From positions 1-64,000 of the forward strand of contig CALLPN010000020.1 in assembly GCA_938015435.1 (NCBI GenBank): a stretch of DNA of 64,000 bases, read 5' to 3'. Below are positions 40,122-41,938 of the stretch, one piece after another. Under the pieces are notes generated by a model. That model did not search any database. It saw nothing but the letters and a program-made list of their open reading frames with translations, and was not told where the DNA came from. The DNA is from an uncultured Saprospiraceae bacterium (GTDB taxonomy: Bacteria; Bacteroidota; Bacteroidia; Chitinophagales; Saprospiraceae). The position numbers and the translations under genes were made by a program. The stretch's first letter is position 1. Each line of letters starts with the position of its first letter.

Positions 40122-40742
40122 ATGATTGAATTTTTGAAATCACTTTTTCGTTCTACTCCTGAAGAAACTTATGATCCTATGAAATACCTTATAGTTGGTC
40201 TTGGCAACATTGGTTCTAAATATGATGATACTCGTCATAATATAGGCTTTGACGTCGTAGACATGATGGCAAAAGATGGTGAAGCGTCTTGGAAGCAAGA
40301 GACATTGGGTGATATTGCTGAAATAAAGCATAAAGGCCGAACTCTAGTATTGCTTAAGCCATCAACCTTTATGAATCTCAGTGGTAAAGCAGTAAAATAC
40401 TGGATGGAGAAAAAGAAAATTCCTGTAGAAAACATGCTTGTTGTTGTTGACGAACTTCAATTAGATCTCGGTGTTATTAGACTCAAAGCTAAAGGAAGTG
40501 ATGGAGGACATAATGGACTCAAAGATATTGCTGAAAAGTTGGCCTCGACAAAGTATTCAAGACTACGTGTAGGTATTGGTAAAGACTTTCGTAGAGGTCA
40601 ACAAGTAGAATATGTATTAGGTAAGTGGGATGCGAAGGAGAAAGATGAGCTTATCGAAATTATCCCTAAGGCTTGTGAGGCAGCAAAAAGCTTTGCGGCA
40701 GTAGGCTTGAAGTTTACAATGGAGAATTTTAATAAAAAATAG
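40122..40742 (+). CDS. pth: Peptidyl-tRNA hydrolase
   Basis: Pth frees tRNA from peptidyl-tRNA dropped by ribosomes. The core begins at KYLIVGLGNIGSKYDDTRHNIGFDVVD, which includes the catalytic-site Asn and His. It continues with LLKPSTFMNLSGKAV, VVDELQLDLG and GSDGGHNGLKDI. The frame opens at 40047; ATG 40122 gives a short extension (MIEFLKSLFRSTPEE) before the core, as often seen in Bacteroidota, while ATG 40179 would give the bare core. It follows the rny terminator and is followed by a repeat region. Confidence 0.94.
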   Translation: MIEFLKSLFRSTPEETYDPMKYLIVGLGNIGSKYDDTRHNIGFDVVDMMAKDGEASWKQETLGDIAEIKHKGRTLVLLKPSTFMNLSGKAVKYWMEKKKIPVENMLVVVDELQLDLGVIRLKAKGSDGGHNGLKDIAEKLASTKYSRLRVGIGKDFRRGQQVEYVLGKWDAKEKDELIEIIPKACEAAKSFAAVGLKFTMENFNKK

Positions 40743-40825: not shown

Positions 40826-41105
40826 TATAAATTATAGAGCCAACTTGTTTTTAGAAAAACACTGTCTGTCTCCACAGTCCGCGCGTTTGCTACGCAAGCC
40901 GTTTGTTTTTGTTAATTTCTCATCTATAAAATTTGTAGAGCCAACGTGTTTTTAGAAAAACACTGTCTGTCTCCACAGTCCGCGCGTTTGCTACGCAAGC
41001 CGTTTTGATTTTTGTTAATTTCTCATCTATAAAATTTGTAGAGCCAACGTGTTTTTAGAAAAACACTGTCTGTCTCCACAGTCCGCGCGTTTGCTACGCA
41101 AGCCG
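40826..41105 (+). repeat. Tandem repeat of about 102 bp, nearly three copies
   Basis: Copies are 40826-40924, 40925-41027 and a truncated third 41028-41105; the first two units measure 99 and 103 nt and are almost identical. Each holds three inverted repeats: gtgtttttagaaaaacac (one mismatch in copy 1), actgt-ctgtctcc-acagt, and ttgc-tac-gcaa. The G+C-rich core (gtccgcgcg) stands out from the AT-rich surroundings. No reading frame is conserved across copies. The array lies between pth and a leftward gene remnant and has the look of a structured non-coding element. Confidence 0.85.
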
Positions 41106-41120
41106 CGCTATAAAAAGAAA

Positions 41121-41148
41121 AACCATCTTACAGTGATGTAAGATGGTT
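41121..41148 (-). terminator. Perfect 12-bp hairpin, terminator on the minus strand
   Basis: aaccatcttaca and tgtaagatggtt form a perfect 12-bp stem with loop gtga. On the minus strand a T-rich tail (tttttcttttta) follows, on the plus strand only a weak one. It should end leftward transcription from the small gene at 41192-41472. Confidence 0.85.
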
Positions 41149-41191
41149 ATTTCTAAAGGTGCACTTGGGCGATCAACTATTAAAATAGAAT

Positions 41192-41472
41192 CTATCCAGG
41201 GTAGCTGATCAAAATAAAACTGAGTAATGCCCCTAGCAAGCCAATGGCAAGCCAAAGTCTACTATCCGCTAGCAGACTGTTGTCGTCTCTGTGCAACATG
41301 AAATTGAGTTTTGGTATTGGTTGAGGAATGCTTCCAATCCTCGTAAAAAAGTTTCGTCGTCTTTTGTAATGAGTAAAGTACTAGACAAACCGTGAACAGT
41401 CACCTTACTAACTACAACATACCATATGCCAATAGCATACCATGAGAAATAATCCTTATGTGTCCTGTACAC
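41192..41472 (-). pseudogene. Possible frameshifted gene for a small membrane protein
   Basis: Two protein-like frames overlap here on the minus strand. The first (GTG at 41472 down to 41269) reads YRTHKDYFSWYAIGIWY and later TKDDETFLRGLEAFL, then decays. The second frame, shifted by one base, continues PIPKLNFMLHRDDNSLLADS and a transmembrane stretch LAIGLLGALLSFILISYPG, ending at 41192. A strong minus-strand terminator follows. Together they look like one protein of about 90 residues broken by a frameshift near 41320. Separately, ATG 41299 would encode a 35-residue membrane peptide. No family is recognised. Confidence 0.4.
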
Positions 41473-41486
41473 CTCTACACCTACTT

Positions 41487-41938
41487 AGTTTTGGGGTAAT
41501 TGATCTATAAGTTTTATAGTTGTAGTATTTATTCTTATCTATCAATGTGTTGTATATGGTAACTTATTACATATATGTCAAAGTATGATTTTTGTTCATT
41601 TGTTATTTACCAAAAATTTGTTCAAAGGGTAGTGGGTGATATATATAAGGATTTTATCAATTGATTCTTTTTCGAGAATTCTTTGAATAGTTTGCGCTCA
41701 ATTAGTGGCGTTAGGCAGCGAAATAAAGAGCCTACCTACTTTAAGAATCGAAAAGACTAGAAACGTAACTTGATCGCGATATGTCGTCTTTACTTAATTG
41801 TGCGATAATTAAAGTTGATTATTTCACCTAAAATCTATTCTACAAAATTATGTTATTACATTTAGCTAATAAACATTTAGAATATGGTCAATGGACTCTA
41901 TTTATAGATATTAAATGCACCTAGATAATTTGTTAGTT
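41487..41938. other. Gene-free spacer
   Basis: About 450 AT-rich nt with no supported gene. Short minus-strand frames just right of 41486 (ending LIDQLPQN at a TAA) could be decayed upstream sequence of the neighbouring remnant. No promoter box or terminator stands out before the T9SS cargo gene. Confidence 0.4.

Follow-up and report, generated by a model that had tools for sequence, protein, structure and literature searches.

The question raised by this locus is what a short, near-identical tandem array represents between the aminoacyl-tRNA hydrolase gene pth and a decayed gene that converges on it. The window, meaning the whole 64,000-nucleotide stretch that was analysed (G000:C20:1-64000), belongs to a 4.92-Mb draft genome (G000, hereafter the own genome). 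Repeat alignment revealed three copies at 40833-41111 with starts 101 and 103 bp apart. TRF analysis of the window placed the array at 40835-41105 with a period of 103, 2.7 copies and 98% matches, the top tandem-repeat score of the window. R1, a covariance model derived from eight copies of the own genome, matched all three at full length. With about even confidence in the explanation as a whole, we regard the array as a REP-like dispersed element, specific to one genus, that has been triplicated in tandem; the element measures about 75 nt without its spacer and carries two hairpins. The features of the locus are as follows.

40182-40742, plus strand: pth, aminoacyl-tRNA hydrolase (TIGR00447, 186 bits), convergent with the decayed gene, with the array between them
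40833-40907, minus strand (the gene-sense strand): element copy 1, H1 at about 40835-40874 and H2 at about 40881-40904 (R1 66.7 bits, E 1.2e-11)
40934-41008, minus strand: element copy 2, H1 at about 40936-40975 and H2 at about 40982-41005 (R1 80.1 bits, E 8.9e-15)
41037-41111, minus strand: element copy 3, the most complete and the closest to the leftward gene (R1 91.3 bits, E 2.4e-17)
41118-41151, minus strand: terminator-like hairpin, an inverted repeat that folds, with its T-tract towards the array and abutting copy 3
41190-41520, minus strand: decayed leftward gene for a small membrane-like protein, interrupted by a frameshift and a stop codon in the window and a single open frame in the congener G002

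The initial annotation had described nearly three almost identical 102-bp copies lying downstream of pth and next to a decayed leftward gene. Both neighbours were identified as it had placed them, and the array is real, 102 bp being the average of the two spacings. Its statement that the units are far more G+C-rich than the flanks was overstated: the units have 0.45-0.51 G+C against mostly 0.26-0.43 in the flanks (200-nt windows), and no peak appears over the array at the 200-nt scale because A+T-rich spacers separate the units. At 69% identity, the closest named relative of the pth protein came from a Saprospiraceae bacterium. The leftward gene is broken in the congener G003 too. Elsewhere in the window, imperfect tandem repeats of the AAAGCAGCAGCAGAT type at 1653-1797 probably encode an alanine- and lysine-rich stretch.

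Two hairpins could be recognised in each unit, and they are best seen in the third copy.

41039-41078, minus strand: hairpin H1 of copy 3, with an outer stem, an internal loop (AC/TGYC) and a GTGTTTT/AAAACAC tip, from pair counts over copies
41085-41108, minus strand: hairpin H2 of copy 3, with a GCGCG/CGCGC base and a TTGC/GCAA tip, from pair counts; at typical loci H2 starts at the stop codon

The family as a whole shares this architecture. H1 consists of an outer stem, a conserved internal loop with AC on one side and TGYC on the other, and a GTGTTTT/AAAACAC-like tip, and H2 consists of a GCGCG/CGCGC-like base with a TTGC/GCAA-like tip; the outermost H2 pairs are missing from array copies 1 and 2. 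Over 92 copies, the cells were paired in 86.9% (outer stem) and 93.9% (tip) of cases in the long hairpin H1, and in 88.4% (base) and 97.7% (tip) in the short hairpin H2. Three internal hairpins per unit had been proposed originally; the pairings that are supported form two, H1 and H2. The proposed second (ACTGT/ACAGT) and third (GCGT/ACGC) hairpins were paired in 71.7% and 56.5% of cells over the 92 copies, against 69% for shuffled letters, and were rejected. Compensatory base changes had been suggested as a check, and they were found. Among 91 distinct rows, pairing was kept in 88.3% of 2256 cells, both sides had changed in 23 of 26 pairs (417 such cells against 135 when shuffled), and the covariation score was 0.442, compared with 0.142 after shuffling and no more than 0.124 when the partners were slid; the alignments behind all these pairing and covariation figures were fitted to the model and are biased in its favour. 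Such strong covariation is what a conserved structure would be expected to give, and the structured-RNA reading of the initial annotation stands to that extent, with two hairpins. Paired changes can also stem from quasi-palindrome template-switch repair or conversion between copies, for which selection is not needed.

Tips and outer stems were exchanged wholesale among copies with pairing intact (GGAGTC/GACTCC, GTATTG/CAATAC, TTTTC/GAAAA and others). A second subtype, in which the outer stems are CGGAGT/ACTCCG and the tip has an AAGC bulge, is also present, and the model catches it only weakly. Short tandem runs of CGGAGTCCATGTGTTT-like pieces at four loci (L023, L086, L089 and L079) are apparently eroded parts of this second subtype. 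Other hairpins with a TAGTCAAG stem begin directly at stop codons at L276:7435-7507 and in L273 near 14705, and may form a third subtype with a weak relationship to the others (the L276 hairpin scores 18.5 bits). The gene-sense strand folded better in 67 of the 92 copies. The wobble-pair test of strand was weak, with 52 versus 90 over all pairs and 51 versus 56 after removal of two poorly paired columns.

A BLAST search of the unit against the own genome gave 45 places at E ≤ 10, many of them weak, and R1 gave 74 matches at E ≤ 0.1. A second covariance model, R2, built from 68 sequences, detected 53 copies in the own genome at E ≤ 0.01 and 6, 30 (G002) and 32 copies in the three other genomes of the genus that were examined. 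Comparison with the whole genome and its relatives, which had been recommended together with the caution that the unit might occur nowhere else, thus revealed a dispersed family in four congeneric genomes, in agreement with the palindromic repeat family that the initial annotation had listed among its readings. Outside the genus, R1 gave no match at E ≤ 0.001 in 36 genomes of other genera of the family and order (40 were searched, and the four with matches all belonged to this genus). R2 at E ≤ 0.01 gave none in 118 family genomes of other genera (120 were searched, and the two with matches both belonged to this genus), a count that may miss diverged relatives of the element because the R2 filters were stricter and no more than 40 candidates per genome were scored. 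The unit was likewise without a match beside pth in 11 named loci of other Saprospiraceae and neighbours (80 fetched). As far as tested, the element family is confined to one Saprospiraceae genus. One degenerate pattern gave no match in viral contigs, and the unit gave none among phages and plasmids. Rfam contained no relevant match in the window at the gathering score, around the array at E ≤ 5, or for nine element loci at E ≤ 1, and no paper on this repeat was found in the open-access library that was searched.

The position of the copies relative to genes was the most regular property of the family. R2 matches in 93 fetched loci clustered to 66 distinct loci in the four genomes, of which 63 were counted with the gene on the 5' side; two that overlapped a called ORF and one without a called gene there were set aside. 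In the orientation of the model, the gene adjacent to H2 is almost always directed towards the unit, and the order as RNA is thus H2' and then H1'. This gene was in the sense orientation at 57 loci and antisense at 6. Its stop lay within -4 to +3 nt of the unit edge at 41 of the 57 sense loci, where even placement over the spacer predicts 2.5 in that 8-nt window, and within -25 to +3 nt at 44; the genes were called from long ORFs and not by a gene finder, and orthologous loci were counted separately in the 57. For the own genome alone, a count by hand gave 19 of 30 sense loci with the stop within -4 to +3 nt. The hairpin begins 0-2 nt past the stop or takes in its last base. Like the dispersal, structure and genus restriction, this stop-codon register is established at the level of sequence comparison.

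Stop and unit overlap in three registers, T+AG, TA+A, and the whole stop plus AGCG. No reading frame is therefore common through the unit, as the initial annotation had noted, and programmed read-through was ruled out by the same three registers. Among the 44 loci the stop codons were TAG (23), TAA (19) and TGA (2); any pull of the element to TAG is at most mild, since TAG ends 23 of 44 genes at elements and 100 of 285 control genes. The mean MFE over the 35 nt past the stop was -10.3 in 41 element genes and -2.5 in 182 control genes, 6 of which reached -9 or lower. The control genes came from 400 kb chosen for lack of model matches (R2 at E ≤ 5 gave three weak matches in these stretches), and another control set included unmasked element genes.

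An array of protein-bound DNA sites, recognised by a nucleoid protein, a gyrase or a recombinase, is highly improbable given this placement. Arrays do occur, and the conserved AC/TGYC internal loop of H1 between varying stems would suit recognition of an extruded hairpin, but neither the sense bias of 57 in 63 loci nor the stop-codon register would be expected of such a site.

The stops at which the elements lie are native. Searches of the three congeners with the C-terminal 110 residues of ten own genes gave 30 orthologs, all of which end where the own-genome protein ends or within a few residues of that point, whether the element is present or absent; thymidylate synthase and ribosome recycling factor reach the last profile position of their families. 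Truncation of C-termini by an element-supplied stop was thus ruled out. The element-bearing genes are diverse and many are housekeeping genes (30 own and congener proteins were scanned, one of them without any family). They include RNase E/G, thymidylate synthase, ribosome recycling factor, RF3, pyruvate kinase and PRPP synthetase, as well as GAPDH, an E2 acyltransferase, a MiaB-like enzyme, an LptE-like protein, an ABC ATPase and others. Elements stand behind the ribosome recycling factor, release factor RF3, RNase E/G and pseudouridine synthase genes at L109, L076, L042 and L090, respectively.

The window array and the other five antisense loci are not placed at the stop codons of sense genes. 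The array is antisense to pth, copy 1 beginning 91 nt past the pth stop, and in the leftward sense it lies beyond the T-tract of the terminator-like hairpin at 41118-41151. The G002 counterpart of that hairpin has a different stem with its self-complementarity kept, and the hairpin, terminator-like in form, would serve pth, the decayed gene or both. At the same place, G002 carries one weak unit in the opposite orientation (23.3 bits) and G003 none, and the region downstream of pth in G001 is not syntenic. The array is accordingly atypical of the family: it is off-position, lying behind the terminator of a decayed gene, and taken alone it would have hidden the stop-codon rule.

The possibility that the element is itself an unusual transcription terminator appears improbable. 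Elements do lie in the sense orientation at apparent ends of transcription units, and ordinary terminators are rare (3 of 52 control genes in a T-run pattern scan), but of 44 element genes, 2 had the T-run pattern within their units, and the window array comes after a separate terminator hairpin.

Comparison of orthologous stops revealed that the congeners often retain the element, its stems compensated. The element is common to the orthologous stops of two or three species for RNase E/G, LptE-like, MiaB-like, DUF5916, ribosome recycling factor, pyruvate kinase and CBS protein genes, and a gene encoding KSKxKKEREKKNK has it at the stop in three species. Other orthologs have a degenerate trace of the element or none; since many lack it or keep a wreck only, the element is not essential at most sites. 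In 15 ortholog comparisons (one with 15 of 26 cells gapped, three from one gene trio), 268 pair cells were unchanged and paired, double changes kept the pair in 27 cells and broke one partner in 7, single changes kept the pair in 11 and broke one partner in 41, and 122 of 356 loop sites differed. The mostly gapped pair L090/L261 was used in these stem-change comparisons only. Seven of 14 ortholog pairs were reciprocal best matches among the copies of both genomes; L121/L074 was left out of the 14, since the two are not orthologous at the element, where a further one is nested (rank 48 of 52). In the own genome, the median identity was 52% for unlinked copies against 88% for copies of the same array, so the spread is old and the arrays are homogenised. 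An old spread by a REP- or MITE-like route, whose enzyme was not found among the genes beside the copies, may have been followed by mostly vertical inheritance, and local multiplication would have proceeded through tandem duplication.

The known families closest to this element are palindromic repeats of other bacteria. ERIC/RU and other MITE-like repeats are intergenic palindromes that are transcribed and may alter the fate of the mRNA; the present element is an intergenic palindrome as well, but it is shorter and has two separate hairpins. With REP/BIME sequences, which go with RAYT transposases, it shares many short intergenic palindromic copies per genome (53 at E ≤ 0.01), in pairs or clusters near the 3' ends of ORFs; REPs are frequently located no more than 20 bp from the end of an ORF and are able to provide a TAG stop (PMC3733652). 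Unlike REP/BIME, it combines two hairpins that differ from each other and keep a fixed order, lacks a GTAG/CGTC tag, has no RAYT beside any tested copy, and shows a tighter register to native stops. In the search for an unpaired tag at the hairpin foot, GTAG occurred in 10 of 91 5' flanks and 7 of 90 3' flanks, and CGTC in 1 of 91 and 2 of 90. Near the Y1_Tnp loci tested in the own genome and G003, a covariance-model search found no unit up to E 10, and G001 and G002 gave no Y1_Tnp match. Membership in a REP/RAYT system was rejected on these grounds, the RAYT loci L034 and L224 bearing another repeat. RAYT-like Y1_Tnp genes at L034/L039 (G000:C18, about 114-119 kb) and L224 (G003) lie beside units of the form GATAAAGCCTTTCATC..GAGGGCT.., a candidate for an ordinary REP family of the genus. 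A shared mobilising gene beside the own copies was likewise rejected: apart from ORFs derived from the element itself, all-against-all comparison of ORFs at 36 loci returned no more than a few pairs of remote paralogs. No inverted repeat spanning the unit was reported in the array, and the 3' regions of the congeners are too diverged to reveal an empty site.

These results bear directly on a selfish reading, under which the element is a functionless DNA repeat of the REP or MITE type that depends on a transposase for its movement and survives by stop codons since insertions within genes are lost. We consider this a minority possibility. The element is dispersed, palindromic and often tandem, its presence varies among congeners at the same site, and in other bacteria, too, REPs occur no more than 20 bp from ORF ends, where they can give the TAG stop (PMC3733652). 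However, neither a RAYT nor another shared gene, nor the GTAG/CGTC tag, accompanies the tested copies, G002 holds 30 copies with no match to a Y1 transposase, avoidance of genes alone gives no peak of 41 in 57 loci in an 8-nt window, and orthologous copies keep their pairing.

The position of the element suggests instead that it works at the tail end of the mRNA. The stalling of ribosomes by stop-proximal E. coli REPs reportedly goes back to Liang, Rudd and Deutscher in 2015. REPs situated up to 15 nt from a stop codon in E. coli reportedly stall ribosomes and lower translation, and 446 of the 4,072 E. coli REPs predicted by RepRanger lie within that distance (PMC12306157). The present element resembles these stop-proximal REPs in having a hairpin immediately behind the stop codon, and differs from E. 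coli REPs in how often it does so, 41 of 57 sense loci falling within -4 to +3 nt against 446 of 4,072 within 15 nt in E. coli (PMC12306157). A translational brake like that of the E. coli REPs, with the hairpin holding up the terminating ribosome until the mRNA is cleaved and the ribosome rescued, would fit a hairpin starting 0-2 nt past the stop or on its last base, well inside the 15-nt limit reported for E. coli (PMC12306157); it is nevertheless unlikely, as many housekeeping genes bear the element and a constant brake seems costly.

Most likely, the REP-like repeat acts in RNA as a post-stop hairpin pair that would guard mRNA 3' ends or affect termination. Action in the mRNA is inferred from the sense bias, the register, the retention at orthologous stops and the slightly better folding of the gene-sense strand, and its exact task is hypothetical, either protection of the end or control of termination. 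In bacteria, exonucleolytic trimming back to a hairpin follows Rho-dependent termination. A ribosome terminating at the stop codon would cover the 5' arm of the first hairpin, and upon its departure both hairpins would fold directly behind the stop codon. The folded hairpins might then block 3'-to-5' exonucleases after Rho-type termination, so that messages would end just past an intact stop codon, and they may also slow or mark termination. A more specific and tentative version is a stop-codon-coupled RNA cassette, a repeat placed and kept at the exact 3' edge of the coding sequence, whose folding after ribosome departure would cap the message end, with either mobility that targets stops or selection that retains the register. 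Taken together, a genus-specific REP-like two-hairpin element at native stops, inherited between species, showing paired changes and acting in mRNA is an account that we judge to have a balanced chance of being correct in all its parts.

If the placement reflects function, tens of genes in one genome would share an interchangeable 3'-end device, set at a constant distance from the stop codon. The sister species would then offer natural plus/minus pairs, in which the role of REP-like repeats at gene ends would be directly testable. If the placement reflects insertion, the genus would harbour a repeat that targets stop codons, and a search for its enzyme would be worthwhile.
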